Below are positions 8,869-31,462 of a stretch of DNA of 36,577 nucleotides, piece by piece (the first letter of the stretch is position 1; each line of letters opens with the position of its first letter). Both the position numbers and the translations under genes were made by a program. The stretch spans positions 1 to 36,577 of the forward strand of contig CAIYHQ010000011.1 of the NCBI GenBank assembly GCA_903926075.1, in the 5' to 3' direction. Source of the stretch: an uncultured Methanomicrobiales archaeon. GTDB lineage: Archaea > Halobacteriota > Methanomicrobia > Methanomicrobiales > Methanospirillaceae. The notes under the pieces were generated by a model that made no database searches, had not been told where the DNA came from, and saw nothing but the letters and a program-made list of their open reading frames with translations.

Positions 8869-8873
8869 CTCAT

Positions 8874-9452
8874 ATGCCCGCCTTTGCAATTGTCGCTCAC
8901 GATGCCAGGACTGATGGAGACTGGTCACTTGATTCTCTTTCAGGCGGGGGCAGGATTGACCTAATCTGCAGGTGCCTATCAAGTTCTCTCCTTATTTCAC
9001 ATGGGATAAGAAAAGATTCCAATATTTCTGTTCTCTTCTATGGTCCACCAGGACCCGCAAAAACTCTCTTTATTAAAGGAGATGAAATAAAAAGGCTTTA
9101 TCCGGATGAGAGGAGTATAGCTTCAATTATTCGAATTGCGTTATTACTTCCCTGCGGACGCGAATTCCGGAAAAGTGCTCCGGGAGTTTATATAAGAAAG
9201 TCTGGCCTTACTGAACTGTTAAGTTCAAATGAATTTGCCCTCCTTATTGAAAACGGAGAAGATTTACGAAAAAGTCCAATAACTTATGAACATTTTCTGT
9301 TAAGTGACCATAGAAATTTTACAGATGAAGAATTTGTACAAATAAGCGAACTCCCGAAATATTCAATCGGCCCTGAAAGCCTGCACGCAGATCAGGTAAT
9401 CACATTAGTTCATAACGAATTTGACAGGAGGGAATCAGGATGGAGATCTTAA
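8874..9452 (+). CDS. trmY: tRNA pseudouridine(54) N1-methyltransferase TrmY
   Basis: A 192-residue SPOUT-fold methyltransferase that converts pseudouridine 54 in the tRNA T-loop to m1-pseudouridine with S-adenosylmethionine. Supporting segments are FAIVAHDAR, the GRIDLICRCLSSSL helix, and the C-terminal knot region IGPESLHADQVI, which corresponds to the SAM-binding loop. Length matches archaeal TrmY. It overlaps pus10 by 13 bases. Pus10 makes the pseudouridine 54 that TrmY methylates, so the overlap joins consecutive steps of one pathway. Confidence 0.93.
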   Translation: MPAFAIVAHDARTDGDWSLDSLSGGGRIDLICRCLSSSLLISHGIRKDSNISVLFYGPPGPAKTLFIKGDEIKRLYPDERSIASIIRIALLLPCGREFRKSAPGVYIRKSGLTELLSSNEFALLIENGEDLRKSPITYEHFLLSDHRNFTDEEFVQISELPKYSIGPESLHADQVITLVHNEFDRRESGWRS

Positions 9453-10681
9453 ATGCAGTCAAGGAAATTCTTACATACGGTGAAGTCTGTGACAATTGCC
9501 TCGGACGTTTTTTTGGTAAACGGTCATTTGGAATTACCAACAATTATCGGGGTCAGGGTTTAAGGACTGCTCATCACCTATCTGAAAATACCCCCTGGGC
9601 GGGACAAAACGGGCAATGCCCAATATGCCAGGATATTTTAAAGGACTTTGAGGTCTGGGCAGAAAAGGTTATTCTTGCGCTTAAAGATATTCAATGCAGG
9701 ACTTTTCTCTTGGGTAGTAAAATTCCCCCGATTATTTCTGAAACTGAAGAGATGGTCTGGAGTGATCTCTCACTGGAAAGTCCGGAGCCAATAAAGGCAG
9801 AAATAAATCGTGAAGTAGGTAAGATTGTCTCTCTAAAAAGAGACCTTGAAGTTGATTTTAAAAATCCCGAAGTAGTCATACTCTTAAATATCAATGAAGG
9901 ACGCACATCAGTTCAGATAAATTCACTCTATTTCAAAGGTCGTTACAGAAAATTCGAACGTGGAATTCCACAGACACACTGGAACTGCAGAAATTGCCAG
10001 GGGAAAGGGTGTGAACGTTGTGGTTTTAGCGGTAAACAATACAATACATCAGTTGAAGAACTGATAGGCGAAGAAGTCATTACTACCTTTGATGCGAAAG
10101 GAGTTTTACTTCATGGTTCTGGTCGTGAAGACATTGACGCGCGAATGCTCGGAACCGGGAGACCTTTTATTATGGAGATAGTCCAGCCTAAAATCCGGGA
10201 ATCCAACCTCTCTCTCCTTGAAAAAGCCATTAATTTAAAGGCTGCGGGAAGAGTGGAGATAGATATTTCAGGATGGACCCATAAAGATGAGGTAGAAACC
10301 CTTAAATCAGACAAATCTCATAAAAGATACCGGATTATAGTCAGTACTGACGGCATACTATCAAGGGAAACACTCGATAATGCTCTCGCAGAATTAAAAA
10401 ATGCGACTATCCATCAGCGGACGCCAGTCAGGGTATCCCACAGGCGTGCGGATAAAATCCGTGATAGAAGGGTAATCGATATCGTCTGCATAAATGAGAA
10501 CTCTCTAAACTTTACACTGGAAGTAACAGGTGAAGCAGGGCTCTATATCAAAGAGCTAATATCCGGCGATGAAGGCAGGACTATACCAAGCCTTACCCAG
10601 TTAACCGGAGTAAATGCAAGAGTAGTTACACTCGATGTTATTGCTGTCGGAACAAAGGAGGAGACAAATGGCACACCATAA
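9440..10681 (+). CDS. pus10: tRNA pseudouridine(54/55) synthase Pus10
   Basis: A 413-residue enzyme that isomerises U54 and U55 of archaeal tRNA. An N-terminal zinc site is formed by C17, C20, C60 and C63 (CDNCLGR and CPIC), a THUMP-like region follows, and a second four-Cys cluster (CRNC and CERC, 183-194) is visible. The catalytic domain carries GSGREDIDARMLGTGRPF, with the catalytic Asp in the REDID segment. The start ATG 9440 has a strong AGGAGGG nine bases upstream, inside trmY. Its end overlaps rpl21e by 14 bases. Confidence 0.95.
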   Translation: MEILNAVKEILTYGEVCDNCLGRFFGKRSFGITNNYRGQGLRTAHHLSENTPWAGQNGQCPICQDILKDFEVWAEKVILALKDIQCRTFLLGSKIPPIISETEEMVWSDLSLESPEPIKAEINREVGKIVSLKRDLEVDFKNPEVVILLNINEGRTSVQINSLYFKGRYRKFERGIPQTHWNCRNCQGKGCERCGFSGKQYNTSVEELIGEEVITTFDAKGVLLHGSGREDIDARMLGTGRPFIMEIVQPKIRESNLSLLEKAINLKAAGRVEIDISGWTHKDEVETLKSDKSHKRYRIIVSTDGILSRETLDNALAELKNATIHQRTPVRVSHRRADKIRDRRVIDIVCINENSLNFTLEVTGEAGLYIKELISGDEGRTIPSLTQLTGVNARVVTLDVIAVGTKEETNGTP

Positions 10682-10967
10682 CGGCCCTAGAAAGAAAACA
10701 AGGTATAAATTTAAGAAAGATCTCAGACGACGAGGAATACTTCCTGTCACACTTCTTATTCAGAAGTTTGAAGATGGACAAAAGGTCCACATTGTCTGCG
10801 AACCAAGTACGCAGAAGGGAATGCCACATCACCGTTTTCATGGGAAAACAGGTACGATTATTGGCAGGCGGGGACGTGCATGGATTCTATCGATAAAAGA
10901 CGGAAATTCTACAAAGACGGTAATTTCACGGCCTCAACACTTACGGGCACAACAAATATCACTCTAA
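10668..10967 (+). CDS. rpl21e: 50S ribosomal protein L21e
   Basis: A 99-residue basic large-subunit protein. MAHHNGPRKKTRYKFKK at the N-terminus, DGQKVHIVCEPSTQKGMPHH in the centre and HGKTGTIIGRRGRAW are diagnostic of L21e, an SH3-like barrel. ATG 10668 is preferred over upstream codons because AGGAGG ends about 6 bases before it and the family begins here. It overlaps the 3' end of pus10 and precedes the Rpo4 gene by 13 bases. Confidence 0.96.
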   Translation: MAHHNGPRKKTRYKFKKDLRRRGILPVTLLIQKFEDGQKVHIVCEPSTQKGMPHHRFHGKTGTIIGRRGRAWILSIKDGNSTKTVISRPQHLRAQQISL

Positions 10968-10980
10968 ATGCGGTGACCAC

Positions 10981-11331
10981 ATGAAGGTCAAAGCAATCGT
11001 GGGCGAAGAGAGAATGACACTATCTGAGGTTAGGGACTATCTCTCTTTAGTTGAGGCGGAACGCCACGAACAGTCAAAGGAAATGTCCTACGAACTCAGA
11101 AAGAGTATTGAACATGCAAGAGAAACAGGGAAGGTCGGAAAAGATAGTTCAAAAAACCTTGTTGAAAAGCTTCTTGCAATGGAGAAGTTAAAACCTGAAA
11201 TAATATACAGGATAGCAAATATTATGCCCAAGTCAAGAGACGAATTACGAGCGATATTTGCTAAAGAAAAGTATACACTCACTGGTGAAGATTTAGATCA
11301 AATTCTCGAAATAGTTCAATCTACAATATAG
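10981..11331 (+). CDS. rpo4: RNA polymerase subunit Rpo4 (RpoF)
   Basis: A 116-residue homologue of eukaryotic Rpb4. With Rpo7 (not in this window) it forms the polymerase stalk, which helps open-complex formation and binds emerging RNA. The N-terminal strand (VKAIVGEERMTLSEVRDYL) and the C-terminal HRDC-like helices (LEKLKPEIIYRIANIMPKS-type segment, then EDLDQILEIV) are the family pattern. A GGTGACC run lies 3 bases before ATG 10981. It sits between rpl21e and DUF655, the usual archaeal order. Confidence 0.93.
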   Translation: MKVKAIVGEERMTLSEVRDYLSLVEAERHEQSKEMSYELRKSIEHARETGKVGKDSSKNLVEKLLAMEKLKPEIIYRIANIMPKSRDELRAIFAKEKYTLTGEDLDQILEIVQSTI

Positions 11332-11339
11332 GTAACATT

Positions 11340-11900
11340 ATGCGGGTCGATAAGAAAGAGATACATGCGGTAGTACTTGATGTCCTTTCAAAAGGGTATG
11401 TCGACGACCCGCGGCCGGTTTACAAACGTGAGGCTTTAGTTCAGGCAGTAGGGGAAGAACAATTTAAACTTCTTGAACTAATCCCAAAAACTCTTGAAAT
11501 TTCTCTGCACGAACGGATATATATTGGTGATTTGAACAGGGATAAGATCGAAAGAGTGAAACGGCGGATATCATTTAATGATCTGACACAGACGGCAAGG
11601 GTTGAACTGATATTTGCGATAGAGAAAATGGTTTCAGAACGTGAACCTGAATTTGTCCAGTTCTTTAACAAAGCAATTTCCATAACTCCAAAACTACACA
11701 TGCTACACCTTCTTCCTGGAATTGGGAAGAAATTATTATGGGAAATTCTTGATGAAAGGGAAAAAAGACCGTTTGACAATTTTCATGACATTTCAACACG
11801 AATAAAATCGATTCCTCACCCTGAAAAAATGATAATAAACAGGATCCTCGAAGAGATTAAAGATCCGAATGTAAAATATCATGCATTCACATCAAGATGA
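11340..11900 (+). CDS. DUF655 family RNA/DNA-binding protein
   Basis: A 186-residue protein of the archaeal DUF655 family. It has an N-terminal OB-like beta region (about 10-75: AVVLDVLSKGYVDDPRP and ERIYIGDLNRDKIERV) and a C-terminal helix-hairpin-helix region (about 118-150) with the hairpin LLPGIGKKLLWEIL, which suggests nucleic-acid binding. The exact function is unknown. The gene lies between rpo4 and rsmA and overlaps rsmA by ATGA (11897-11900), consistent with a role in rRNA or transcription-linked processes. Confidence 0.9.
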   Translation: MRVDKKEIHAVVLDVLSKGYVDDPRPVYKREALVQAVGEEQFKLLELIPKTLEISLHERIYIGDLNRDKIERVKRRISFNDLTQTARVELIFAIEKMVSEREPEFVQFFNKAISITPKLHMLHLLPGIGKKLLWEILDEREKRPFDNFHDISTRIKSIPHPEKMIINRILEEIKDPNVKYHAFTSR

Positions 11901-12658
11901 ATGTAAGAAAAGATCAACATTTTTTAATCGATAAGGACGCTGTAAAGCGAATAGTAGAAATTGTACCTGTAGATAACCGTAGAGTCCTCGAAATAGGGCC
12001 GGGAGATGGAATTCTCACAGAGAAGCTTCTGAATGAAGGGGCAAAGGTAACTGCTATTGAGATTGATGGTTTTCTCGTTGAAAAACTCAAATTGCGGTTT
12101 TCAGACGAAATTAAACAGAAAAAATTAACGATTATCCATTCTAATGCTGTTAAAGCTGAATATCCGGAACTTGACCTGATTATTTCAAATCTTCCTTATT
12201 CCATCTCATCCCTGGTTATATTCAGACTTTTATTTTCTGAGTTCAACGCTGCAGTTTTAATGGTACAGAAAGAATTTGCAGAAAAAATGGTCGCATTTAC
12301 CGGAACACGAGATTGTGGCAGACTTTCAGTTATGGTTCAGACGTTTGCAAATGTCCATAAATGTTTTGATCTGCCACCCGAATCATTTCTACCAAAACCA
12401 AGGGTTAATTCATCTGTTGTAAGGATAACCCCCCGTTATCCTCTTTTCGGGATTAACGATCGGAGGGTCTATGAAAACCTTGTACGTGCGCTTTTTATGC
12501 ACCGCAGAAAGACTGTGAAGAATTGTTTGCGCGGTGCCCAATGGCTTAAAGGATGGGATATTTTGGTTGATTCGCTTCCAGGTGAGATTTTGAAATCACG
12601 GCCTGAAGAACTTTATCTTGAAGATTTCGCAATGATGTCTAATGTTTTATCAGGCTGA
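11897..12658 (+). CDS. rsmA: 16S rRNA dimethyladenosine transferase RsmA (KsgA/Dim1)
   Basis: A 253-residue SAM-dependent enzyme that dimethylates the two adjacent adenosines in the 3' loop of small-subunit rRNA as a late assembly checkpoint. It has the DQHFLID start, motif I LEIGPGDGILTEKLL (about 32-46), acidic motif II IEID, and catalytic NLPYSISS (motif IV). A C-terminal helical domain includes MHRRKTVKNCLR. It overlaps DUF655 by 4 bases at its start and the HemK2-like gene by 17 bases at its end. Confidence 0.95.
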   Translation: MNVRKDQHFLIDKDAVKRIVEIVPVDNRRVLEIGPGDGILTEKLLNEGAKVTAIEIDGFLVEKLKLRFSDEIKQKKLTIIHSNAVKAEYPELDLIISNLPYSISSLVIFRLLFSEFNAAVLMVQKEFAEKMVAFTGTRDCGRLSVMVQTFANVHKCFDLPPESFLPKPRVNSSVVRITPRYPLFGINDRRVYENLVRALFMHRRKTVKNCLRGAQWLKGWDILVDSLPGEILKSRPEELYLEDFAMMSNVLSG

Positions 12659-13214
12659 TCAGATTTATCCAGTTCAGGAAGATACGCTCCTGTTAAAAAA
12701 AGCAATACTGGAAGAAATTAAATTAAACGATAATGTACTTGAGATTGGCACAGGCAATGCGGAAGTGGCCTTATCAATAGTAGGGAAAGTCCGCTCTTTA
12801 ATTGTTACAGATATAAATCCTCATGCAGTGATTCACGCAAAAAAACACGGACTGGATGCGATTAGGGCAGATCTTACTGCTCCTTTTAAATGCTGTTTCT
12901 CTTTAATTGTCTTTAATCTTCCTTACCTTCCTACCGATAAAAATGAAAGGATTGATGACTGGCTTGAATTCGCACTTGATGGAGGACCCGATGGTCGTCG
13001 CGTTTTTTACCGTTTTCTTCCTTCTCTATCACGAGTCCTTGCATTGGGAGGAAGACTCCTCCTCCTAATCTCCTCTCTTACAGGACTTGAAGAAGTCCTT
13101 AATGCTTTATTTAAAGAAGGTTATTCAGTTGAAGTCCTGCTATCTGAAAAACTTCCGGGTGAGGAACTCTATGTCATCCGGGGAGTCTATGATAAAAAAA
13201 AAAGTGTTAAATAA
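12642..13214 (+). CDS. HemK2/Mtq2-like class I methyltransferase
   Basis: A 190-residue Rossmann-fold methyltransferase. QEDTLLLKKAI, motif I LEIGTGNAEVALS and VTDINPHAV match archaeal HemK2, which methylates the Gln of the GGQ loop in release factor aRF1. The catalytic NPPY motif of the family reads NLPYLPT here, which keeps the Asn and the Pro-Tyr pair. DGGPDGRRVFYRF is also typical. It is the last gene of the + strand cluster. Substrate assignment to aRF1 rests on family knowledge and context; no second subunit (Trm112-like) gene is nearby. Confidence 0.85.
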   Translation: MFYQADQIYPVQEDTLLLKKAILEEIKLNDNVLEIGTGNAEVALSIVGKVRSLIVTDINPHAVIHAKKHGLDAIRADLTAPFKCCFSLIVFNLPYLPTDKNERIDDWLEFALDGGPDGRRVFYRFLPSLSRVLALGGRLLLLISSLTGLEEVLNALFKEGYSVEVLLSEKLPGEELYVIRGVYDKKKSVK

Positions 13215-13265: not shown

Positions 13266-14669
13266 TTAAGCTTTGTTCTGTCTAATTAAAAACCTTGCAT
13301 GGAGATCTTTTTCTCCCCAGAGTTCCTCGTTCTCTGGATCAAGCTCATGAGCCCTTTTAAAGCACTTCACAGCTTCAAGACGGTTTCCAAGTTCATCAAG
13401 ACTTATTCCCTTGTTTCTCCATGCACCTACACTATACGGGTTGATTTCCAGTGTCTTATCGTAGCAGAAAATGGCTTCAGGATGCCGAATTAGTTCACTA
13501 TAAATCCAGCCTTTATTAAACCAGGCCACAGAATTCTTTGGATCAAGATCAAGAGTATTATCAAAACATTTTAAAGCTTCGCGATATTCTCTTTTAAATC
13601 TGTGAATACTGCCTTTATTGAACCAGGCCTCACTCCTCCATCCGTCAAGATCAATTGCTTTATTATAACTCTCATGTGCAGCATCATATCGCTCCAGCTT
13701 TTGGAGAGCTATTCCCCTGTAATACCAGGTATCAGGGTCCTTTGAATTTAGAGCGATTGAACGGTCAAAATAAGAGAGAGCTTCCTCATAACGCTTTAAA
13801 TTTAAAAGAGTAAGTCCGGATTTTTTCAGAGTGATGTGATCATTTGCAGATTTTTGAAGAGAATGCTCAAAGCATGCAAGGGCATCTTCAAATTGTAACA
13901 GTTCAAGATGAATATTTCCTTTCCTTTTCCAGGTATTTGAGTCATCCGGGTTGTAATCCAGCACTTTGTCATAAGAACTATGAGCTTCATTGAAATTTCG
14001 TAATTTTTCAAAACTATACCCTCTATGGAACCATGCATCGACATTATCGGGTTCAAGTTCGATGGCTTTATCATAGCAAAGGCGTCCTTCGTGATACCTT
14101 TTTAACGTATTGAGCGCTGAGCCCTTTATTAGCCATGCACGGATATCGTGAGGTTCAAGTTCAATGGCTTTATCAATTGCCTTTAATGCATATATTGGTC
14201 TTTTCAATCTTAGATAAAGTCTGCTTCTATGAAGATATCCGGGTAAGTAGTTTGGATCAAGAATAACTACATAATTATACGAGTCAAGTGCTTCCTTGTA
14301 TTTTTTAAGAGCATTTTGACAGTGTCCTTTGAAAAGCCATGCTGATAACTCTTTTCTATCGAAATCAATCACAAAGTCAAATTCACTTATTGCATCAGAA
14401 TACTGTTTTAAGTGATACAACGAAAAACCTCGTTGGAGGTGGGCTTTTTGATGAGTGGGTTCTATTAATGTAGCTTTTGTAAGGCTTTTTAGGGATTCAT
14501 TATACTTTTTTGTCCTGTTCTCGATATATCCTTTATAGTACCATGCTTTCCCGGAATTAGGATCAATCTCTATAATTTTAGTAAAATTGTTAAGGGCGAG
14601 AGTGTCATCTCCTTTCTCAAGATACTTTAATCCTTCTTCAAATTGAGCTGTGAGATCCATGTTTTTCAA
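13266..14669 (-). CDS. TPR-repeat protein with 13 uninterrupted repeats
   Basis: A 467-residue protein made almost wholly of tetratricopeptide repeats. Residues 8-449 divide into thirteen consecutive 34-residue units without gaps. Each unit has the pattern AW..KG..L..L..Y.EAL..(Y/F)(D/N)KAIEL(D/E)P. An 18-residue basic tail follows (LWGEKDLHARFLIRQNKA). No signal peptide or membrane segment is present, so it should form a soluble superhelical scaffold that binds partner peptides. It is convergent with the methyltransferase gene and lies downstream of the glycosyltransferase/regulator genes on the same strand, with a likely promoter of its own. Partner and function are unknown. Confidence 0.88.
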   Translation of the reverse strand: MKNMDLTAQFEEGLKYLEKGDDTLALNNFTKIIEIDPNSGKAWYYKGYIENRTKKYNESLKSLTKATLIEPTHQKAHLQRGFSLYHLKQYSDAISEFDFVIDFDRKELSAWLFKGHCQNALKKYKEALDSYNYVVILDPNYLPGYLHRSRLYLRLKRPIYALKAIDKAIELEPHDIRAWLIKGSALNTLKRYHEGRLCYDKAIELEPDNVDAWFHRGYSFEKLRNFNEAHSSYDKVLDYNPDDSNTWKRKGNIHLELLQFEDALACFEHSLQKSANDHITLKKSGLTLLNLKRYEEALSYFDRSIALNSKDPDTWYYRGIALQKLERYDAAHESYNKAIDLDGWRSEAWFNKGSIHRFKREYREALKCFDNTLDLDPKNSVAWFNKGWIYSELIRHPEAIFCYDKTLEINPYSVGAWRNKGISLDELGNRLEAVKCFKRAHELDPENEELWGEKDLHARFLIRQNKA

Positions 14670-14710
14670 TATTTTTAACTATCTATGAAATAGAATTTTT
14701 CGATTGAGCT

Positions 14711-14726
14711 CTATAAAATAATTCGT
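14711..14726 (-). promoter_or_regulatory. Possible TATA box for the TPR gene
   Basis: On the - strand the run CGAATTATTTTATAGA covers 14711-14726, about 45-55 bases before ATG 14669. It predicts a short leader. The 116-base gap between the glycosyltransferase stop and the TPR start is otherwise simply AT-rich. Confidence 0.35.
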
Positions 14727-14785
14727 TAGATAGTTATATTACATTATAGTATAGAAGCGATTTGTTATTTGCTTTTTGTATTCCA

Positions 14786-16912
14786 TTAACAGCACATCCT
14801 TATTATTGAAGTGATATTAGAGAGCCCCTGTATTGCAAAAAACTTACTGACGGGTGTGTGAATTATATTTAACAATATAACGAGGCCAAAAATCAAAATC
14901 AATGTTAATAGTACTGAAAGAAAAATCTGAATCGATGTTGGCCTTTTCATTCCTCTTTCGATAGTCGGGATCTCAACTTTTATCCGGGCTATATTCTTTT
15001 TCATCTGATTCTGATCTTCAGGCTTTTGAATGGCAACGTCAGTACCATGGGCAGTTTTATCCCAGAAATAAGGATTTCTCACTATCTGAATCGCGCCTTT
15101 CCAGGCACCTATGCTCATCAGTATCCAATATATAGGAGAGAAAAATGCAAACAGAAGAAGATCATATTGACGTTCTTTATATGTCGCTAATACTGAAAGC
15201 AGGATGTAAGTCAGGTTTCCTAATATCAGATTGAAGATAGCAATAAAAGCGAATGGTCTGAAGTCAAACCAGTTGGAAAATATCCCTGGAATCAATAATG
15301 CGGCTATAAAAACACTCCAAAGGATGACATTTACAAGAGGCAGATAAAAATTTCCACCAAATGTTAACTGGAATATAATAAAACGTTTGAATCCAAGTTC
15401 TTTATAGAGAATGCGTGGATGACGCATATGGACAAGCCAGGTTATAATGAATCCCTTAACCCAGCGTGAACGCTGATTAATCCAGCCTTGGACTGATGAA
15501 ACTGATTCCTCATAAGTATGCGAGTTGAGCATCCCGGTTTTTAAATTCCTTCGGGCAATCCTGACACCGAGGTCTGCATCTTCTGTAACATTATATGGAT
15601 CCCATGCCCCAATTTCACGAAGTTGTTTTACCCTGAAATGATTACTCGTCCCCCCAAGGGGTATTGCGGCTCCGACTTTATCCATGCCCTGAAGGAAATA
15701 ATCATACCAGTATGAATATTCGATAGTGAACCATCTTGTCAGAATGTTTTTCCTCGAATTGTAATAATTAAGAAGACACTGGAGACACGCATAATCATTT
15801 CCAAGTTTACGAAATGCAATTACCGCTTTCTTCAATTGATCAGGTTCAGGATAGTCCTCGGCATCATATATTACTACAAACTCACCTCTCGCACGGTACA
15901 ATCCGTATGTACAGGCTCTGGGTTTTGTCCTGATCTCTGACTTTGGAACGATAACAGGACTAAATATTTTTAAAAATTCCCTGTATTCATCTTCAGTCAT
16001 TGGATCAATTATCTTTTCAACCGAACCAAAAAGACCTAAGGAACGTGCCTCACCAATTGTCTCTTCGTCCTCTTCTTCCATGAGAAGTTTAACGTCAAGT
16101 TTATTTTTCGGATAATCAAGGTTGTGAATGTTTGCAAGAATATGGGGCAACATCTTTTTTTCACGGTACATAGGGACTAAAATCGTATAGATAGGGAGAG
16201 TGGATTCATTTATAGTATCAATATCTTCATTCGAGACATAGACCATCCGGCCTGAACCTGTAAAACCCATAACAGATATATAAAATTTCACTGGATTCAT
16301 GAGGAAATAGGTGATATTGATAAGTGTAAAAATTACAAAAATTGTGTAGAGTGTGTTGATAATAAGAAAAAATCCAATTATAAGGGCTAATATGATAATA
16401 GCAACTTTTTGCCAGGGAAACAAAATTATATATGCAGATTCATCCGGGTTTCTGTCTCGTAACTCCTCAAGTGCTTTGTAACTATGCATTTTCTGGAAAC
16501 CCAGGTCATTCACTTCAGAGACTGCATTAAGAGATGCAACAGAGATTTCGATCTCGCGTTTAAAGATTAATCGGAGGCGTACAAAAATCTCTCTGTTCAG
16601 AGGATTGGCAGTTGCTATCTTAACTTTTTCCGGAGTTATACCAAGGAGGATAATATGTGATTCGCGGATTACATTGTAAGGGAGGGCCTGAGCATAATGT
16701 GTCTTTTTTTTCAATTCAAATGATTCAATATACGGGAGTCCAAGTTTTTCTGCGAGAGATTTATAAAAGAGGTCAGGAACTATTATTTTATATTGGTCAA
16801 TTGCCTGGATTAACTTTTCTTTTGTAATTTGAGGTCTTTCTAAAAGACTAATCTCATCTACATTGTATTCTTTCAGGAGATTGAGGATCTCATCTTTTGT
16901 AATTTCATTCAT
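14786..16912 (-). CDS. Membrane glycosyltransferase family 2 with N-terminal GspE/MshE-type domain
   Basis: About 708 residues (716 if read from ATG 16936). Residues about 10-155 resemble the N-terminal domain of type II secretion/pilus ATPases: LAEKLGLPYI, LPYNVIRES, LLGITPEKVKIATANPLN. Two hydrophobic stretches follow (about 175-215), then a GT-A glycosyltransferase domain with YDAEDYPEPDQ (DxD-like), TEDADLGVRIAR and QRSRWVKG, the D,D,D,Q(Q/R)xRW layout of processive beta-glycosyltransferases. At least four further membrane helices lie in the C-terminal third. The enzyme probably polymerises and extrudes a polysaccharide or glycosylates a lipid carrier. ATG 16912 avoids overlap with the regulator gene; a run of ten A precedes it on this strand. 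Confidence 0.85.
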   Translation of the reverse strand: MNEITKDEILNLLKEYNVDEISLLERPQITKEKLIQAIDQYKIIVPDLFYKSLAEKLGLPYIESFELKKKTHYAQALPYNVIRESHIILLGITPEKVKIATANPLNREIFVRLRLIFKREIEISVASLNAVSEVNDLGFQKMHSYKALEELRDRNPDESAYIILFPWQKVAIIILALIIGFFLIINTLYTIFVIFTLINITYFLMNPVKFYISVMGFTGSGRMVYVSNEDIDTINESTLPIYTILVPMYREKKMLPHILANIHNLDYPKNKLDVKLLMEEEDEETIGEARSLGLFGSVEKIIDPMTEDEYREFLKIFSPVIVPKSEIRTKPRACTYGLYRARGEFVVIYDAEDYPEPDQLKKAVIAFRKLGNDYACLQCLLNYYNSRKNILTRWFTIEYSYWYDYFLQGMDKVGAAIPLGGTSNHFRVKQLREIGAWDPYNVTEDADLGVRIARRNLKTGMLNSHTYEESVSSVQGWINQRSRWVKGFIITWLVHMRHPRILYKELGFKRFIIFQLTFGGNFYLPLVNVILWSVFIAALLIPGIFSNWFDFRPFAFIAIFNLILGNLTYILLSVLATYKERQYDLLLFAFFSPIYWILMSIGAWKGAIQIVRNPYFWDKTAHGTDVAIQKPEDQNQMKKNIARIKVEIPTIERGMKRPTSIQIFLSVLLTLILIFGLVILLNIIHTPVSKFFAIQGLSNITSIIRMCC

Positions 16913-16919
16913 TTTTTTT

Positions 16920-17360
16920 TTATTGTTCCAGATCAAGGTTTGTTAGTTGCCTTTCAAGATATTCAGAGACTTTCTCACCATCAATCTGTTCGGCTTCTTC
17001 CTGCTCAACAATCTTTTCATGAATTATCTGAATGAGGACTCTGGGTTCAACAGGTTTAACAATATATGCATCAGCTCCTGAATTGAGAGCCTTAACTGAA
17101 TTTTCAAGGTTTGCATATCCTGTAACCATTATCTTCATCATTGCAGGTCTTATTTTCTGAAGTTCTATTAGAAGGTCTGTGCCTTCCATATCAGGGAGTT
17201 TAATGTCAAGAAGGGCCAGGTTGTAATATTTCCCTTCTGCCTTTTTCAGACCATCTCCCGCATTATTTGCTGTATCGACCGTATAACCTTCCAACTCGAG
17301 GATCTCCCTGAAACTTTCCAGAATTCCCTCGTCATCGTCAACAATTAATATATTTTTCAT
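16920..17360 (-). CDS. Single-domain response regulator (receiver)
   Basis: A 146-residue protein with one CheY-like receiver domain (2-120). The acidic cluster is at D8-D10, the phospho-acceptor is D52 (LALLDIKLPDMEG), and the switch Thr and Lys are T80 and K102 (VTGYA and VKPVEP). All catalytic residues are present. A charged C-terminal tail (about 121-146) follows, with no DNA-binding domain, so output must be by protein contact. Its stop lies 7 bases before the preferred glycosyltransferase start and its own start is 13 bases after the kinase gene, so the kinase, regulator and glycosyltransferase probably form one operon. Confidence 0.92.
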   Translation of the reverse strand: MKNILIVDDDEGILESFREILELEGYTVDTANNAGDGLKKAEGKYYNLALLDIKLPDMEGTDLLIELQKIRPAMMKIMVTGYANLENSVKALNSGADAYIVKPVEPRVLIQIIHEKIVEQEEAEQIDGEKVSEYLERQLTNLDLEQ

Positions 17361-17373
17361 TCAAATCTCCTCG

Positions 17374-18648
17374 TTATTTTAAACTGATTTTCTGTTTCGC
17401 GGAGTTATTAGGTAATTTAATAGTAACAGTAGTGCCTTTTCCAATATGACTTTCCAGTTGGATAGTCCCGTTGTGAGCTTCAATAAGTCTTTTTGCAACA
17501 GGCAACCCAAAACCGGTTCCTTTGGGTTTCGTTGTAAAAAGTGGATCAAAAATTTTCAAGAAAATGTCCTCAGTTATCCCTTTCCCTGTATCAGTAAGCT
17601 CTATTATAGTATTTTCGCCTTCTGTTCTCGCGTTGACCTGTAAAATACCCCCTTCCGTCATTGAAGAAATTGAATTTGTAATTAAGTTTGAAAATACACG
17701 TTTTATTAATTCTTTATCAGCTGATATCATAATTCCCATGGGAACTTTTACATTATAGGTAATTTTTTCATTTATTTTTAATAATAGTTGAAAGTCAAGG
17801 AATAACTGCCTGACATCTACAAGACTTAAGTTGAGACTGATATCTCTTGCATAGTCCTGAAGATCTGAAACAATTTTATTTAAGTATATTGTTTCATCTT
17901 CGATTTTAGATAGTATAGTATTAATTCCAAATCTTTCGAGAACATCATATTCAGCACTATTCATTTGAGTTCTCCTTCTTTTTGCAAGGAATTCCATGTT
18001 TGTTATAACCTGAAGTGGATTTCGCATATCATGGCCTATCATTGTAGCAAGTTCTCCAATTACAGAGAACCTGTGTACCTGTTCAAGCTCCCTCGTTCTC
18101 TCTTTCACAGTCTCTTCGAGTTCTTCTGTATATAATTTTAACTTGTTTTCAGCTTGATGTAATTGTGTTATCTGCCGTATCTTCTGGCAGAGGTCAGAAT
18201 ATACAAGTACTGGATTACCGGATCTCTGGAAAAGAAAATCAGAACTGGATTTAATTGCTTCTTTAATGATATCAGTTCCTCCAGGACTTGTAAACAATAT
18301 AAAAGGAATGGTGAAATTTTGCAGGATCAGTTTTTTATGGAGATCGATTCCACTCATATCGGGTAGATCATATTCTGAAACGATCACGTCGTATTTTTGA
18401 GCTTTAACCTCATCAAGTGCCTCATTACCAGTTAAAGCTCCATTTACAAGAAGTGCACCCAGTTTTGTAAGATTTTCTTTTGCAAGTTTTATACCTTTTT
18501 CATTGCCATCAACAACAAGGATCCTTATTTCTGATTCCGAAAGAAAATTACACATATATTCACCGTTATTCGCATTTCCATTATCCTCCACGGATGAAAT
18601 TTTTTTAGAAGGGTCTGGATTTACGACCGACGGTATTTTCTCTTCCAT
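17374..18648 (-). CDS. Histidine kinase with degenerate N-terminal receiver domain
   Basis: A 424-residue soluble kinase. Residues 41-160 fold-match a receiver but lack key residues: the acidic pair is D47-G48 (VVDGNE), the phospho-acceptor position is E92 (VIVSEYDLPDMSG), and the usual Lys is R142 (FQRSG). A coiled linker (165-195, ETVKERTRELEQ) leads to the DHp helix with H206 (IGHDMRNPLQ), then an ATPase with N325 (NLITNS), DTGKG (353-357) and GTGFGLP (377-383). The kinase half therefore looks active while the receiver probably cannot be phosphorylated. It is the first gene of the operon with the single receiver and glycosyltransferase, and its own receiver may act as a constitutive or ligand-responsive regulator. 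Confidence 0.9.
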   Translation of the reverse strand: MEEKIPSVVNPDPSKKISSVEDNGNANNGEYMCNFLSESEIRILVVDGNEKGIKLAKENLTKLGALLVNGALTGNEALDEVKAQKYDVIVSEYDLPDMSGIDLHKKLILQNFTIPFILFTSPGGTDIIKEAIKSSSDFLFQRSGNPVLVYSDLCQKIRQITQLHQAENKLKLYTEELEETVKERTRELEQVHRFSVIGELATMIGHDMRNPLQVITNMEFLAKRRRTQMNSAEYDVLERFGINTILSKIEDETIYLNKIVSDLQDYARDISLNLSLVDVRQLFLDFQLLLKINEKITYNVKVPMGIMISADKELIKRVFSNLITNSISSMTEGGILQVNARTEGENTIIELTDTGKGITEDIFLKIFDPLFTTKPKGTGFGLPVAKRLIEAHNGTIQLESHIGKGTTVTIKLPNNSAKQKISLK

Positions 18649-18675
18649 AAAAATAATGAGAATATTTTGATCATC

Positions 18676-18692
18676 TATTATATTAATTTCAT
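18676..18692 (-). promoter_or_regulatory. Likely TATA box for the kinase-regulator-glycosyltransferase operon
   Basis: On the - strand, GAAATTAATATAATAGA at 18676-18692 lies about 30-45 bases before ATG 18648. It is in the 98-137-base divergent gap shared with the + strand receiver-PAS-kinase gene, so the two transcripts may be co-regulated. Confidence 0.4.
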
Positions 18693-18732
18693 CTTTTTAG
18701 ATAATTACTTTGCAAGAATTATTTCGGTAGAA

Positions 18733-18747
18733 TTTTATTACATATAG
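18733..18747 (+). promoter_or_regulatory. Possible TATA box for the divergent receiver-PAS-kinase gene
   Basis: TTTTATTACATATAG at 18733-18747 lies about 40-50 bases before ATG 18786. If used, the predicted start site near 18765-18772 would fall after GTG 18747 and so favours ATG 18786 as the start codon. Confidence 0.35.
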
Positions 18748-18785
18748 TGATAAGATCTTCAACAGGAAAAAAAAGTAAAACAATA

Positions 18786-20384
18786 ATGACTGAAAGAACT
18801 GAAAATCTGAACATTCTTCTCGTTGAGGATGAAGAGGCACAGGCTGAACTGATAAAAAAAATCCTAGAAATGGAACTTGTTAATTGCACTGTTCACGAAG
18901 CCTCAACAATAAGTGAGGCAAAAATGATTTTAGAGGCAATTAGTCCTGATATTATTATCTCGGACTGGTTTTTACCAGACGGTGAGGGAATCCAGATGAT
19001 GCCTAATTATCTTCATAATGCAGATTCACCAGTCATATTGATGACAGGTCAGGGGAATGAAGAGATTGCAGTCGGTGTGATGAAAGCAGGCGCACTAGAT
19101 TATATCATAAAATCTGAAGACGTATTCTTTTCACTTCCAAAGAATATTGACCGATGGCTTCGTGAATGGGATAATATTATCTTTAGGAGGGAAGTTGAAA
19201 AAAGTCTCATTGAGAGTGAAGAAAAATTCAGATCACTAATTTCAAACCTCCCGAGTTATGTTCTTATTTATGCAGAGGGCGAGATCCTCTATGTAAACAA
19301 CGCACTTGTAAGAGGTCTTGGATATTCCAGCGAAGAATGGATAGGCTCTTCATTGTTTTCATATATCGGTTCAGAAATACATAAAAAAATTCAGGATAAT
19401 ATAAACCGGGAAAAGAGAGGTGAAGTAACAAAAGATTATGAAGTTCCAATCATAAGTAAAAACGGAAAGACATTAATTGTCGATGTGAAAGGAAGTTTAA
19501 TACAATTCAACAGGAAACCAGCCTTACTTGCAGTTTTAACAGATATTACTGAAAGAAAGACAATTGAAGAGGAACTGAAGAGATATACCCGGGAAATTGA
19601 AGCAAAAAACATTGCTTTAGATACCCTGCATAAAGAGATATCTGAGATCAACCTAGGACTTGAAAAAACCGTAAAAGAGAGGACACACGAAATTGAAGCA
19701 TTATTGCAACAGAAAAACGAACTGATTCTCCAGCTTGGTCACGATCTTAAGACCCCCCTTACCCCTCTTCTTGCTATACTTCCATATATCATCAAGTATG
19801 AAAGCGACGAAAAATTGAAAGGGCTTCTGGAGGTTGTTCTTAATGAGGTAAGGAACATGCGGGATATGGTCTTTCATATCCTGGAAATTGCAAAGTTTCA
19901 ATCACACGATTTTCATCTGGAAAGCCATGAAATGGACTTAAAACAATTGATCGACGCAATAATTTCAAGTACTCGTCTGACAACAGATAAATCTCAGTTA
20001 GTTTTTGAAAATACTATTCCAAATGGAATAATTATTAAGTCTGACCGAATGTATCTGAATTCACTTTTTCTAAATCTTATTGATAATGCAGTAAAATATA
20101 CAAATTCTGATGGAATTATAAAAGTAAATGCTGAAGTTAAAATTGACGAAGTAGTGATTTCAGTTAAAGATAATGGGATTGGAATTAAACAGGCCGATCT
20201 TGAAAAGATCTTTACTGAATTTTTCAAAGTTGATCCTTCCCGTCATGAGAGGGAATCATTTGGACTTGGCCTTTCAATCGCAAAGAAAATTACCGAAAAA
20301 TTGAATTGGAGGATCTGGGCCTGTAGTGAAGGACCAGGACTTGGTTCCACATTTTATGTTGCAATTCCAAAAGATATTAATTAA
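18786..20384 (+). CDS. Receiver-PAS histidine kinase (soluble)
   Basis: A 532-residue cytosolic signalling protein. Counting from GTG 18747, the receiver (22-140) has the acidic EDEE at 27-30, phospho-acceptor D73 (ISDWFLPDGEG), T100 and K122. A PAS domain with PAC segment spans about 155-272, followed by a coiled coil (275-320), the DHp helix with H332 (LGHDLKTPLTPLL) and an ATPase with NLIDNAVKYT, DNGIGI and GLGLSIAKK. All catalytic residues look intact. ATG 18786 is preferred because a TATA-like run lies just before GTG 18747; the longer form cannot be excluded. It diverges from the pseudo-receiver kinase operon and may feed or compete with it. Confidence 0.9.
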   Translation: MTERTENLNILLVEDEEAQAELIKKILEMELVNCTVHEASTISEAKMILEAISPDIIISDWFLPDGEGIQMMPNYLHNADSPVILMTGQGNEEIAVGVMKAGALDYIIKSEDVFFSLPKNIDRWLREWDNIIFRREVEKSLIESEEKFRSLISNLPSYVLIYAEGEILYVNNALVRGLGYSSEEWIGSSLFSYIGSEIHKKIQDNINREKRGEVTKDYEVPIISKNGKTLIVDVKGSLIQFNRKPALLAVLTDITERKTIEEELKRYTREIEAKNIALDTLHKEISEINLGLEKTVKERTHEIEALLQQKNELILQLGHDLKTPLTPLLAILPYIIKYESDEKLKGLLEVVLNEVRNMRDMVFHILEIAKFQSHDFHLESHEMDLKQLIDAIISSTRLTTDKSQLVFENTIPNGIIIKSDRMYLNSLFLNLIDNAVKYTNSDGIIKVNAEVKIDEVVISVKDNGIGIKQADLEKIFTEFFKVDPSRHERESFGLGLSIAKKITEKLNWRIWACSEGPGLGSTFYVAIPKDIN

Positions 20385-20419: not shown

Positions 20420-23248
20420 CTAAACAAAAGTGCGATAAGCCCAATTCGGTACCGTCATCTCGAACCGTGCTCCACTTCCGAAAATCCCGTCTTCCTCAAT
20501 CGTGACACCTGTTATTGCAAGTATCTCCTGGGTGAGGAATAATCCCATACCTGTATTCTTTCCCACACCCCGTTCAAAAATCTGTGTTTTTTGGTCAAAA
20601 GGTATACCTGCACCATCATCCTCAAAAATTAGCAGTGCATTGTTTTCTGTGACCCGGGTGAATATACGTATGGTTGTAATCTTCTCCCCATACCTTTTTG
20701 CATTATCAATAAGGTTATAGAAAACCTTCTCCAGCAATGGGTCAGCATAGACCTCAATATTCCCGGTATCTATTTGAAAGTGTATACCAGTATTTTCAAA
20801 ATTCTGTAAAACTTTATCGATAACGAGGTGAATGTTCTGCCATAACGGCAGGTGAACACCAACTTCCTGATATTCCCTCGTAAATGCTATCTGCCGTTCT
20901 ATAATGCGTGTAAGTTCCTTAATATCATCAAGAAGATGCTTTTTTTCTTCAGGTGAGGTTGTAGCATTTGCCATATCCACACAACCTAAAAGCCCGGTTA
21001 TAGTGTTGAGGATATCATGCCGGGTGATATTATTCATCAGGTTAAGTTTCCTGTTTGCAAGTTCTATTGCATCCTCAGCACGTTTACGTTCAGAAATATC
21101 AACAACAGCTGCGATACTGTCAGTTGTTCCTGGGATCATTACGACACTTACAATACATGAGTGAACATTTTTTAATGAATCAATAAGCCTGAAGAGATAT
21201 TCTCGAGGAACGAAAGATGACTCATCCCTCCGGTCGTAATGATATTTTTTCATCATATCCTGGTCTTCAGGATAAACAAATTCGGTCCAGCTCCTCCCTA
21301 TACAATCTTCTTTTGAAATCCCGGTAAGTCTTGCCCATCTCTCGTTTGCAAGAATAATGGATGTGTTCTTTGAAATAATAATCGTGGCACTTCCAGTGTT
21401 ATCAAAAATTGCCATGTAAAGGTTTTTTGATTCAGTCAATTGCTCTTCAACACGCTTCCTTAGAGAATCATCGCGTAAAACGCCATAGATTCCAATGGGT
21501 GTTCCATATTGGTCAAGCCGTAGAGTACCTTTTTCCTCAAACCAGTGGGTATTTCCCCATTTATCAAGGATTCTGAACGTGGAATGAAACTGTGCTCCTT
21601 TTTCGAGGTCACGTGCAAAATCTTTTTCAACCGTGTTGAAGTCACTTGGATAGATAATATCCCGAAATGTTTTGCCAAGTATCTCATCCACAAGATATCC
21701 ATATTTATTGACCTGCGGTGAGATATATGTAAAAAAACCTGACATATTCAGGGAGAATAGAATGTCACTCGTGTTCTCAGTGAGTGCCCGATATTCTTCC
21801 TCACTTTCTTTTAAATCCCTTTCAAGCTTGAGTCTTTCAGAAATATCAAGAACTATACCACGAAAGCCGATAATGTTGCCTTCACTGTAAATTAGAGAAG
21901 TATTGACAATTGCATGCATCAGGTTTCCATCAAGTTGTTTTAAAGTATAGGTCTCACCAGGAGAACGGGCTCCGGATAAAACTGCTGCAAGTCCCCTCTC
22001 CATCATTTCGATATTCTCAAGTGATAAATAATCCCTGATATTAATCCCTTGATTGATCTTTTCTTCGGTAACTCCGAATATTTCAACGCCGGTCTTATTG
22101 ACATACAGAAGATTGCCAGTTGTGTCCATCTCAAATATGATAAGCGGCAGATTTTCAGCGAGTCCTCTGAACCTGGCCTCACTTGCCTGCACTTTCTGCT
22201 GGGCCTGTTCAATTGTGTCGAGCATCCGGTTTATTTCTGTAGCGAGTCCTGATAGTTCGTCATCTCCTTCAATTCCTACATGCTCTGTTGTGCTTCCGGA
22301 TTTACCAATTGAATATACCTGGGTCGAAATTGATCTCATCCTTTTTAAGAGGATCCGATCAAGAAGAAAAATTACCACAAGCCCTAAGCACAGACCACTA
22401 AAAATTATGATCAAAATGACCTGTATAGTCGTATTTAATCCCTGGCGATAGATATCACGTGCTTCGGTGATCTGGAGAACAAGTGCATCATTTCCATAAA
22501 TATCCTTAATTAGGGCATATCCGGCAATCCTTTCCATGCTAATTTGTTTGATGGTTCTTGATAATGAGCCGCTTTTTTCCCTGATACGTGAGAGAAGGTC
22601 TGGCGACAATGAAGGGTCTTCGATACTAATAAAAGCAAGACTAGGCTGTGTAAGTTCCGCAAGCTTTGAGATTTCTGCCTTGTCAAGGTACCTCCCCATA
22701 ATGACTACTCCCTGGGGCTCCCCGGAAAAATCGGAATGTACTATAGGTTGTGATACAATGATCATCGGATTTTCGGGAAGCATTAAAATTCCTGCGGTTA
22801 TATAGTGAGGATCTGACATATTCATCAGGGGAGTTGTAAGAGAAAGATGCCCCTGAAAAAATGCCGGAACTGGGACCATTACCTTATTTAAAGGATCATA
22901 AGATCCGGAATAGACTATTGCCCCCTTGTTATTTGTTAAAACAATAAGGTTCATGTTCAGATTATCAAAGCCCGGGGTCAGGAGATTTGATCTGATATAC
23001 TCCGGGTCATTCCCATTTACAAAATTATAAGTATCATCCCAGGGCCCCCAATCAGATACTATCGCAGAAAGTGTCGAAAATTCATCATCTAGTTTTTTTA
23101 CAGACTGGTCGAGGTCCTTTGCAATATATTGCTCTTCAAGAGTGCTGTAACTTGCAAGAAGTATTGTTGAAAAAAATATGCTGATAACTATTAAAACGGA
23201 TATTAGCAGAATGACAAAAACCAAAATTGTTTTTTTCTGGAGGTTCAT
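20420..23248 (-). CDS. CHASE4-HAMP-PAS(3)-histidine kinase, membrane sensor
   Basis: A 942-residue sensor. Membrane helix 1 (about 8-31) is followed by an extracellular CHASE4 domain (about 50-265; VSDWGPWDDTYNF is the signature), helix 2 (about 272-297) and HAMP (297-350). Three PAS domains follow (about 357-472, 480-600, 605-725). The DHp helix has H744 (NITRHDILNT), and the ATPase has NLIDNAKRYG, EDDGAGIP and the ATP lid GKNTGMGLFL, all intact. It senses an unknown outside signal through CHASE4 and cytosolic ligands or redox through PAS. It is convergent with the receiver-PAS-kinase gene (35-base gap). Its cognate regulator is unknown. Confidence 0.92.
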   Translation of the reverse strand: MNLQKKTILVFVILLISVLIVISIFFSTILLASYSTLEEQYIAKDLDQSVKKLDDEFSTLSAIVSDWGPWDDTYNFVNGNDPEYIRSNLLTPGFDNLNMNLIVLTNNKGAIVYSGSYDPLNKVMVPVPAFFQGHLSLTTPLMNMSDPHYITAGILMLPENPMIIVSQPIVHSDFSGEPQGVVIMGRYLDKAEISKLAELTQPSLAFISIEDPSLSPDLLSRIREKSGSLSRTIKQISMERIAGYALIKDIYGNDALVLQITEARDIYRQGLNTTIQVILIIIFSGLCLGLVVIFLLDRILLKRMRSISTQVYSIGKSGSTTEHVGIEGDDELSGLATEINRMLDTIEQAQQKVQASEARFRGLAENLPLIIFEMDTTGNLLYVNKTGVEIFGVTEEKINQGINIRDYLSLENIEMMERGLAAVLSGARSPGETYTLKQLDGNLMHAIVNTSLIYSEGNIIGFRGIVLDISERLKLERDLKESEEEYRALTENTSDILFSLNMSGFFTYISPQVNKYGYLVDEILGKTFRDIIYPSDFNTVEKDFARDLEKGAQFHSTFRILDKWGNTHWFEEKGTLRLDQYGTPIGIYGVLRDDSLRKRVEEQLTESKNLYMAIFDNTGSATIIISKNTSIILANERWARLTGISKEDCIGRSWTEFVYPEDQDMMKKYHYDRRDESSFVPREYLFRLIDSLKNVHSCIVSVVMIPGTTDSIAAVVDISERKRAEDAIELANRKLNLMNNITRHDILNTITGLLGCVDMANATTSPEEKKHLLDDIKELTRIIERQIAFTREYQEVGVHLPLWQNIHLVIDKVLQNFENTGIHFQIDTGNIEVYADPLLEKVFYNLIDNAKRYGEKITTIRIFTRVTENNALLIFEDDGAGIPFDQKTQIFERGVGKNTGMGLFLTQEILAITGVTIEEDGIFGSGARFEMTVPNWAYRTFV

Positions 23249-23285
23249 GATTATTGCACTATATGTTCCCAGTTTCCATTAATCG

Positions 23286-23298
23286 GATATATAATGTT
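23286..23298 (-). promoter_or_regulatory. TATA box for the CHASE4 sensor gene
   Basis: On the - strand CATTATATATCCG lies at 23286-23298, 38-50 bases before ATG 23248, and is a good archaeal TATA match. It implies a leader of roughly 15-25 bases. Confidence 0.5.
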
Positions 23299-23341
23299 TG
23301 GTGAAAAAAAAGATAATGGAAATTCCCTTTTTTGTTATAGA

Positions 23342-23578
23342 AATATATTTCCCATCTGGCACCGTTATCTCAAACCGTGCCCCAATTCCTGGTTCACCCG
23401 TTTTTCCTATGGTATTGACGGTGATGATATCCAGAGGTGGTCATAACATGATAAATGGTCTATGGTTTATTAATGATTGTGGGGGACAATCACCTGCTTC
23501 CTCAAGGAAAATCTTAGCGATCTCGAGAAGACCTGTTTCATCGTCAACATAGAGAACCCGGATAGCTTCTGCCATCAT
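23342..23578 (-). pseudogene. Remnant of a receiver-...-histidine kinase gene reduced to its two ends
   Basis: Read on the - strand from ATG 23578, the sequence encodes the start of a receiver domain (MMAEAIRVLYVDDETG and on to FLEEAGD). It then becomes unrelated and hits TGA at 23441-23443. The same frame continues with the end of a kinase ATPase domain: GKTGEPGIGARFEITVPDG (about 23352-23410), matching the C-termini of the kinases around it. The whole middle (most of the receiver, any PAS, the DHp and most of the ATPase) is gone, so this is a large internal deletion. An AGGAGG-type ribosome site still precedes the ATG. The 45-codon peptide is unlikely to be functional. Confidence 0.75.
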
Positions 23579-23930
23579 GCACTGTCACTATCCCTCCTGC
23601 CAGGTTTGGATACCGCTTCCAGAATACCGGGCGGTGTGATATTTTATCAAAAAGCGAATGTCCTGGCTTGGCTTGACTTGATTGTTATCCATGTGAGGGC
23701 CCGGTCTTGTTTTTTCCCATAGTTTCACCAGAAAATGGTGCCTGAGATATAGAGGATACCCTGTGCAAACATCCCGGCATATAGTAACGGCGTTTTCGAT
23801 TACGTATGATTATTGCAGGCATGATTACAATCTTAAGACACCACGTTTCATCACAAATATTAAGGAAATCCAGATATATTTCGCCAGGTACACTTGTAAA
23901 GTGATAATAGGCGTATATATGTTTAAGGGT
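23518..23930. repeat. Duplicated segment, copy 1 (pair with 31562-31895)
   Basis: From CGATCTCGAG at 23518 through the start of the receiver remnant and about 350 bases upstream of it, the sequence matches 31562-31895 closely. Shared landmarks include CTGCCAGGTTTG, TTGTTATCCATGTGAGGGCC, GTGCCTGAGATATAGA and, after a less similar stretch, CACTTGTA.AGTGAT.ATAGG. Differences are scattered over all codon positions, so the part upstream of the receiver start is probably non-coding leader or decayed DNA. No gene is supported in 23579-24091 on either strand. Confidence 0.75.
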
Positions 23931-24030
23931 TTTGCTATGGTTGGTTTGAAACCGCAAAACAGATATTGAACGCGTCAGTTACAAGGAAATAGGCATTAGC
24001 CAAAATTTGAATAGGTTCATTTGGTTGTTC

Positions 24031-24046
24031 TCTCTATATAACTTAC
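24031..24046 (+). promoter_or_regulatory. Possible promoter of the nuclease/transposase remnant
   Basis: TCTCTATATAACTTAC at 24031-24046 has a good TATA core and lies about 45-60 bases before the GTG at 24092 that begins the remnant. Confidence 0.4.
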
Positions 24047-24091
24047 TCACAGGAAAATTTATTCGATTAGCAAAGTCAAATAAAGTATATT

Positions 24092-24825
24092 GTGTATATA
24101 GCGAATCCAATCTACGATGTTGTTTTTAAATTTTACCGTATATCGTCTGGATTATTCGGCATTGATACAGACACCGGAGGGAAAACTAAAAGTCATAATT
24201 GAAATAGAGAAAGCAAAGCTGATAACTGACATCATGCGTTTTCGCCACTACTTAAGAGAACAATACAGCAACAAAGAGAATTATTATGAGATGGACGGGA
24301 AAAAGAAGGCCCTGCCCATAATCAGTATTTACTTCCCTTGGGTATTCAATTTCTGACATCCCCGGACCAGTTCTGGATATACGCCGGGTATGTACTGATA
24401 GAACAACGCTTGAGATCTATCCGATAAAAGACGAGTTTATAGAGAGTCTGACTCATGACAGTTATATCATTCAGATTAACCGCCTGAAAGAGAAGCGGCG
24501 TAATGAACTTGAGATACTTCTTAATGTCTTTGATCAGGATACTATCTCAAAAGATAATCATATCCTGAATGTTCATGAAGAAGATTTTCCAAAAAAGCAT
24601 CGACCACTTATTCGTCGCCTCCAGAATGCAGCCCAGACTGACGAAGTTCGTCAGGCTATGGATATAGAAGATGAGATACTTGAAGAACTGGCAGATCTTG
24701 AGCGAAAAATTGAAGAGAAAGATAAATCTATTGAAGAGATAGGTAAAACCGTAGTGGAGAAAGATAAGACTATCGAAGAGAAGGATCGTATCATTGCAGA
24801 TCTCATGAAGAAGTTACAGGAATGA
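24092..24825 (+). pseudogene. Rpn-family PD-(D/E)XK nuclease/putative transposase, frameshifted and internally deleted
   Basis: GTG 24092 begins VYIANPIYDVVFKF, the usual family N-terminus. It jumps directly, with a frame change, to TVYRLDYSALIQTPEGKL, so roughly 45-50 residues that normally lie between are missing. The nuclease core E-x-K is kept (VIIEIEKAK), then DIMRFRHYLREQYS and KKALPIISIYF. Near 24336-24340 an extra C (CTTCCCTTGG) shifts the frame and causes a stop at 24354-24356. The rest is readable in the other frame: GPVLDIRRVCTDRTTLEIYP, FIESLTHDSYIIQI, HILNVHEEDFPKKHRPLI and a charged coiled coil (EEKDKSIEEIGK) ending at 24825. Family members are recombination-promoting nucleases; this copy should be dead. 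Confidence 0.8.
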
Positions 24826-24999
24826 TATGATGATTTAATCATCCACCATTTTAAGGTAATTATGATTTTCTCCGATATATCTGCCATTCTTATCAGCGTA
24901 GAATATCGGAACGGGTAATGCTGATAACACTGCCTCCTGAAATGACAATGATTTGTGAAGTGATTCCCGGGTTGAATCCTCTTCTTCCGGCCGGGTCTG

Positions 25000-26010: not shown

Positions 26011-26071
26011 CTGAAACCCCTCCTATATGGTGACACTGGAAACCTGATATTATACATGGATTGTCCTCCTT

Positions 26072-27814: not shown

Positions 27815-27868
27815 AGTGCCCTATTTTATTAGTCTCTTTCATTTTCATTATACATAGTCCTGACTGTT

Positions 27869-29302: not shown

Positions 29303-29309
29303 GAGAATT

Positions 29310-30758: not shown

Positions 30759-30929
30759 TATATTATTATAGCTTCCTGAGGCAATAACAATTTAGTAACT
30801 ATTCTGGGTCACAAAAAACTGATGCAATACATTCAAATTGCAAAGCTACTCATCGGCAAGATAATAAGAAAGAAAGTTTTAGACCTGTAAGTTACGACCA
30901 TATGAAGTCATAATCAATATCTATTTTAT

Positions 30930-31356: not shown

Positions 31357-31383
31357 CGGAATAATTTTCAATTTCTTGTATTC

Positions 31384-31462
31384 CTATGTCGTTATCTGCT
31401 ATTTTAAGGAAATAATCATTGCCCTCGCACTGCAGGTTTTTTGTAATAGTGCAAGGCTCACT
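31384..31462 (-). pseudogene. Fragment of a HisKA_2-type kinase ATPase domain
   Basis: On the - strand this encodes EPCTITKNLQCEGNDYFLKI and ADNDIGI, matching PCTITLTLKCEGSDYLLIV and ADNGLGI of the kinase at 29310-30758. It is fused in frame to the receiver fragment that starts at 31354, an order (ATPase before receiver) never seen in the intact paralogs. It is therefore a rearrangement scar. Confidence 0.65.

Follow-up and report, generated by a model that had tools for sequence, protein, structure and literature searches.

A conserved histidine kinase–receiver–glycosyltransferase triad in archaea: a candidate two-component-controlled polysaccharide synthase with a degenerate MshEN domain

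Our comparison of gene neighbourhoods supports a triad of a histidine kinase (HK), a stand-alone receiver (RR) and a GT2 glycosyltransferase (GT) as a conserved unit across widely separated archaea. With moderate confidence, we propose that this triad is a two-component-controlled polysaccharide synthase, in which the phosphorylated receiver would act on the synthase by protein contact. The stretch of DNA that was analysed (36,577 nucleotides, hereafter the window) is contig G000:C11 of a 3.14-Mb archaeal draft genome belonging to the same family as the genus Methanospirillum (g12). Its relevant features are:

17374–18648, minus strand: cytosolic histidine kinase, 424 aa (degenerate N-terminal receiver, HisKA, HATPase_c)
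16920–17360, minus strand: stand-alone receiver, 146 aa (Pfam: REC without output domain)
14786–16912, minus strand: BcsA-type processive GT2 synthase, 708 aa from the ATG, about 6 TM helices
16484–16912, minus strand: MshEN/GspE-N domain of the synthase (PF05157), with ND0 helices and ND1 alpha/beta part
15290–16207, minus strand: GT-A catalytic core of the synthase, residues 244–549 in TTG numbering (BcsA alignment)
13266–14669, minus strand: TPR protein of 13 repeats without a visible signal peptide; a neighbour of doubtful module membership
18747–20384, plus strand: divergent REC-PAS-HisKA-HATPase kinase; a neighbour whose place is not conserved in relatives

The five open reading frames of the original prediction are all present at these positions, and its spacing is exact, with 13 bases between the kinase and receiver genes and 7 bases from the receiver stop to the synthase ATG at 16912. 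The TTG listed as the synthase start (16936) overlaps the receiver gene; the N-termini of relatives align with the ATG. Beyond the divergent kinase, the minus strand carries seven more two-component genes in a row (20420–36546; CHASE4, PAS and REC kinases and one REC-PAS), an unusual density of signalling genes, and a housekeeping stretch with SRP54, Rpb4 and DUF655 occupies 7522–13214.

In Pfam, the kinase matches REC (45 bits) and HATPase_c, and its H-box, GHDMRNPLQV, is intact. Its receiver, at about 18247–18522, is indeed a pseudo-receiver, the phosphoacceptor Asp being replaced by Glu and the Lys by Gln. The receiver of the Methanospirillum kinases is also degenerate, but at other positions; the kinase core is kept at the Methanospirillum loci and also adjoins the receiver at Bathyarchaeota and Nitrososphaeria loci. 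The lone receiver had been described as devoid of a DNA-binding domain, and Pfam finds only REC (93 bits) and no output domain. It retains the acidic pocket and the phospho-Asp, Thr and Lys residues expected of a single-domain response regulator. A short C-terminal helix (GEKVSEYLERQL, about 16923–16988) was considered as a synthase-specific signature and rejected, being present too in receivers far from the synthase. Synthase-linked receiver orthologues score 146–186 bits against the window receiver (G349 lower, at 123 bits), with 177–186 bits for the synthase-adjacent receivers of three complete-chromosome Methanospirillum genomes, whereas other receivers of the window and of the Methanospirillum genomes reach at most 61 bits. 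Because three genomes (G345, G346 and G349) have a single receiver matching at E ≤ 1e-8, the synthase-linked one, chance proximity to the synthase amounts to about 0.5–1% per genome. The HK-RR-GT arrangement exceeds chance.

Relatives of the synthase are sparse. They were found in 9 of 101 near relatives, 27 of 257 Bathyarchaeota-class genomes, 4 of 77 Nitrospinota, one Aerophobetes MAG and 2 of 200 genomes of the Nitrososphaeria class, one of these being a weak partial match; many compared genomes are MAGs, and several loci are cut by contig edges. Six Methanospirillum genomes have HK, RR and GT arranged and oriented as in the window, although in L030 the GT reads as two open reading frames, and a seventh Methanospirillum genome is rearranged, with the GT ahead of HK-RR (L027). 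The same triad is found in Bathyarchaeota (L060–L063 and L067). One locus has RR-GT behind a truncated upstream gene (L033), other gene orders occur at seven loci (L012, L013, L016, L044, L046, L064 and L065), and in another Halobacteriota family (G136) a receiver orthologue lies 75 bp from the GT. Varied arrangements with a receiver orthologue near the GT also occur in several Bathyarchaeota groups and one Nitrososphaeria MAG. No receiver–GT fusion was seen at the loci read; the two are separate open reading frames, unlike the single-chain REC-BcsA type of Methanobacteriaceae.

Conserved co-occurrence had been proposed as a check on the original prediction, and the triad does recur in widely separated archaea: a member of the receiver family lies within 4 kb of the GT in 18 of the 20 archaeal rows of the GT tree outside one clade. 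That clade, clade B, comprises 14 Bathyarchaeota rows (support 100/100) and has a receiver near the GT in one of the 14, at a limit of 4 kb as at one of 6 kb, some contigs being short. GT and RR tree distances are correlated (r = 0.94, n = 19, 0 of 5000 permutations), with a contribution from shared ancestry or co-transfer. The observation named in advance as adverse, a GT2 fusion without a receiver nearby, was made as well: besides clade B, one genome has the synthase and no nearby receiver (G560, L045), and a 99% complete Methanospirillaceae genome (G006) has the synthase and no receiver of the synthase-linked family anywhere. Conversely, members of the receiver family are found without the synthase in g33 genomes, in G334 and in several Bathyarchaeota.

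In one genome (G056), the receiver family adjoins a different GT2 that has no MshEN domain, with a related kinase two genes on; this pairing supports a glycan role but, since docking there would need another site, weakens MshEN as a general docking site. The locus (L068, G056:C345, 80–6182) brings together a kinase, a lipoprotein-like gene, a PgaC-like non-MshEN GT2, a receiver of the same family and a TPR gene.

Two neighbours that had been counted with the module fared less well. The TPR protein does consist of 13 repeats of 34 residues, but the one adjoining the GT in Methanospirillum and G006 is another protein, apparently secreted and 24–25% identical to that of the window. A TPR scaffold as conserved partner was rejected on this identity, on a lipobox or signal sequence found in the relatives only and on the abundance of TPR domains. 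The divergent kinase likewise has the predicted receiver-PAS-kinase architecture (REC-PAS-HisKA-HATPase) and lies 98 bp away, but the Methanospirillum loci lack it and mostly carry a GH26 gene in its place; this gene diverges beside the kinase of the triad in six Methanospirillum genomes (L024, L025, L026, L028, L029 and L030). Among the Nitrospinota synthase loci, a GH113 gene is present at L017 and a BcsB-like gene at L019.

The catalytic part of the synthase aligns to BcsA (5ej1/4hg6/4p00) with E = 1.7e-8 for the single sequence and 7e-17 for the profile, and Pfam reports Glyco_trans_2_3 in addition to PF05157 MshEN. The hallmarks of a processive BcsA-type GT2, here DAED, TEDAD and QRSRW, are invariant across 36 homologues. 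In an AlphaFold model of the GT (pLDDT 83), long helices flank the GT domain; its top structural matches are BcsA and hyaluronan synthase, and a Pyrobaculum mannosyltransferase is similar too. Assignment as cellulose synthase was rejected: the enzyme scores 57 bits with the TIGR03030 equivalog model, which requires 699, so that we do not file the enzyme as a cellulose synthase and leave its product unassigned. The GH26 (Methanospirillum) and GH113 (L017) neighbours give a mere hint of a mannan-like polymer and were discarded as a guide to the product; the window genome has no GH26. Five Methanospirillum synthases (L024, L025, L026, L028 and L029) are extended beyond their last TM helix by about 130 C-terminal residues, a segment missing from the window enzyme. 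A frameshifted C-terminal extension of the window enzyme, by comparison with the 845-aa Methanospirillum enzymes, was rejected after inspecting the other frames by eye, as there is no clear continuation. In five Bathyarchaeota synthases (L060, L061, L062, L064 and L065), about 70 residues are inserted within the GT domain, close to query residue 312.

The GspE/MshE-like domain predicted at the N-terminus of the synthase is borne out by PF05157 (33–35 bits, cut-off 23.1) and by its fold: the AlphaFold model of the domain (pLDDT 88) matches the N-domains of XpsE, MshE, PilF and PilB in Foldseek, the last from the PilB-PilZ complex. No other MshEN domain was found in the 3.14-Mb window genome, and PF05157 matches 38 of 38 homologue N-domains at E ≤ 0.01. 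The published c-di-GMP motif of MshEN domains consists of two 24-residue RLGxx..Q units set 5 residues apart (PMC5013675). We scored it as the tandem pattern RLGxxhhxxGhhxxxxLxxxLxxQ with a 5-residue spacer, giving 22 positions. The window domain does not read as a c-di-GMP receptor, with 8 of 22 positions, the level of shuffled sequences, and no NF053729 match. Synthases of Nitrospinota, Aerophobetes and one archaeal genome (G208) have 14–19 of the 22 positions at the correct spacing, and the remaining 34 archaeal sequences 7–10, no better than shuffles, with 4–5 residues missing within motif 1. The NCBIfam c-di-GMP_motif model matches five of the 38 N-domains (L017, L019, L021, L022 and L034), all of them from the bacteria or G208. 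A residual motif in the archaeal domain was sought under the relaxed published pattern as well and rejected. In archaea the MshEN domain has retained its fold but lost the tandem c-di-GMP motif, a state newly seen here; we speak of loss because the canonical motif is widespread in other MshEN proteins, the root of the tree not being inferred.

No GGDEF domain was found in the 18 archaeal genomes tested that carry the degenerate MshEN domain, whereas all four bacterial genomes tested have GGDEF domains, 2–9 each. Archaeal response regulators with GGDEF output have been reported absent (PMC5847659). The sole GGDEF of G208 is part of an RR-GGDEF protein adjoining the synthase. At this locus (L034, G208:C107, 4660–8450), the canonical-motif MshEN-GT2 lies directly beside the REC-GGDEF protein, whose C-terminus is HD-GYP-like by eye, and the contig also bears, by eye, an archaeal primase-large-subunit-like gene. 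In the GT tree G208 groups with the bacteria, so that motif, GGDEF and lineage are statistically inseparable. These data are best read as control of the synthase by a phosphoreceiver instead of by c-di-GMP. A swap of inputs is a more tentative proposal, which we hold to be possible at somewhat under even chances: an MshEN-BcsA synthase, with the c-di-GMP motif in bacteria and the G208 lineage, would have been rewired in GGDEF-less archaea, its degenerate domain becoming a receiver dock. Clade B shares the degenerate N-domain, and motif loss alone therefore does not imply receiver control.

In the mechanism that we propose, the lone receiver would take its phosphate from the autophosphorylated cytosolic kinase. 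Having no output domain, the receiver so phosphorylated would contact the membrane GT2 encoded directly downstream and alter its activity, the degenerate MshEN domain being the likeliest docking site, and the synthase would produce a surface polysaccharide and extrude it. Post-translational control of the adjacent GT2 by the lone receiver, the core of the original prediction, thus stands as the best reading and has direct precedents; the contact between receiver and synthase, its docking on MshEN, the sign of the regulation and the product are what we infer.

A functional triad might also work with the receiver acting indirectly, as a shuttle or phosphate sink for its own and other kinases or through another partner, while MshEN docks something else, such as a TPR protein, a scaffold or another synthase subunit. 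The occurrence of the receiver family without the synthase and beside an MshEN-less GT2 is consistent with this, as are the numerous kinases and receivers of the compared genomes and the scaffold role of GspE/EpsE N-domains, which bind GspL/EpsL (2bh1 and 4pht are among the weak structural matches). We nevertheless consider such indirect action rather unlikely, given that G345, G346 and G349 have one receiver at E ≤ 1e-8 and have it near the synthase, and that proximity outlasts changes of gene order. Continued sensing of a small molecule by the MshEN-like domain, be it a nucleotide or another cyclic dinucleotide, with the two-component pair just sharing its operon, is improbable. Cyclic dinucleotides other than c-di-GMP occur in archaea, and the fold is kept in 38 of 38 homologues; MshEN domains with imperfect motifs may, moreover, still bind c-di-GMP (PMC5013675). 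Against this, the degenerate sequences retain neither the motif spacing nor its Arg, Gly and Gln positions, none of them matches the relaxed motif, and the degenerate-form archaeal genomes tested have no GGDEF domain. Finally, that the genes are neighbours by co-inheritance or co-transfer only, without a regulatory link and with the N-domain as a relic, would suit the sparse, patchy distribution, suggestive of transfer, and the retention of the enzyme without the HK-RR pair in clade B and G006, but is very improbable in view of an association kept in several divergent groups, in differing orders and orientations and mostly at close spacing.

Direct receiver control, the reading we prefer, has precedents in REC-BcsA fusions, EpsW/EpsZ and PilB-PilZ. 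Our literature search on Methanospirillum exopolysaccharide and archaeal receiver–GT pairs found nothing specific to the window locus. The REC-BcsA fusions of Methanobacteriaceae (MTH_548 type; PMC5847659), likened here by their description, likewise place an archaeal BcsA-like GT2 under a receiver, but in one polypeptide, whereas the window has separate genes, a linked kinase and an MshEN-like domain on the GT. In Myxococcus xanthus, the phosphorylated single-domain response regulator EpsW activates EpsZ (PMC12802240), again a stand-alone phosphorylated receiver and a polysaccharide enzyme under post-translational control; direct activation in the window is drawn by analogy, as EpsZ is a bacterial phosphoglycosyl transferase with no MshEN reported and the window enzyme a BcsA-type synthase with an MshEN-like domain. 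The PilB of Xanthomonas citri, which is without the c-di-GMP motif, binds PilZ largely via ND1 (PMC8389850; PDB 7lko), so that a motif-less MshEN-type N-domain there docks a small regulatory protein, although the partners are a pilus ATPase and PilZ rather than a glycan synthase and a receiver. MshEN is likewise fused to a membrane processive GT2 in Escherichia coli NfrB and other MshEN-glycosyltransferases (PMC8669469, PMC5013675), but NfrB has a C-terminal MshEN with an intact c-di-GMP motif, whereas that of the window GT is N-terminal and has lost it. BcsA itself (PDB 4p00, 5ej1) shares the GT2 fold and the D/D/TED/QxxRW residues and is the best sequence and structure match of the catalytic part; its activation by c-di-GMP runs through a PilZ domain, whereas the window synthase has no PilZ, and the archaeal loci showed no recognisable BcsB gene.

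Stand-alone receivers make up about 40% of archaeal response regulators, and most of them lack a conserved neighbourhood that might point to their targets (PMC5847659). The triad supplies a specific, testable target for one of them. It also offers a natural comparison within one synthase family, between a c-di-GMP-type and a receiver-type input, and may bear on the control of surface polymers and aggregation in archaea without c-di-GMP enzymes.
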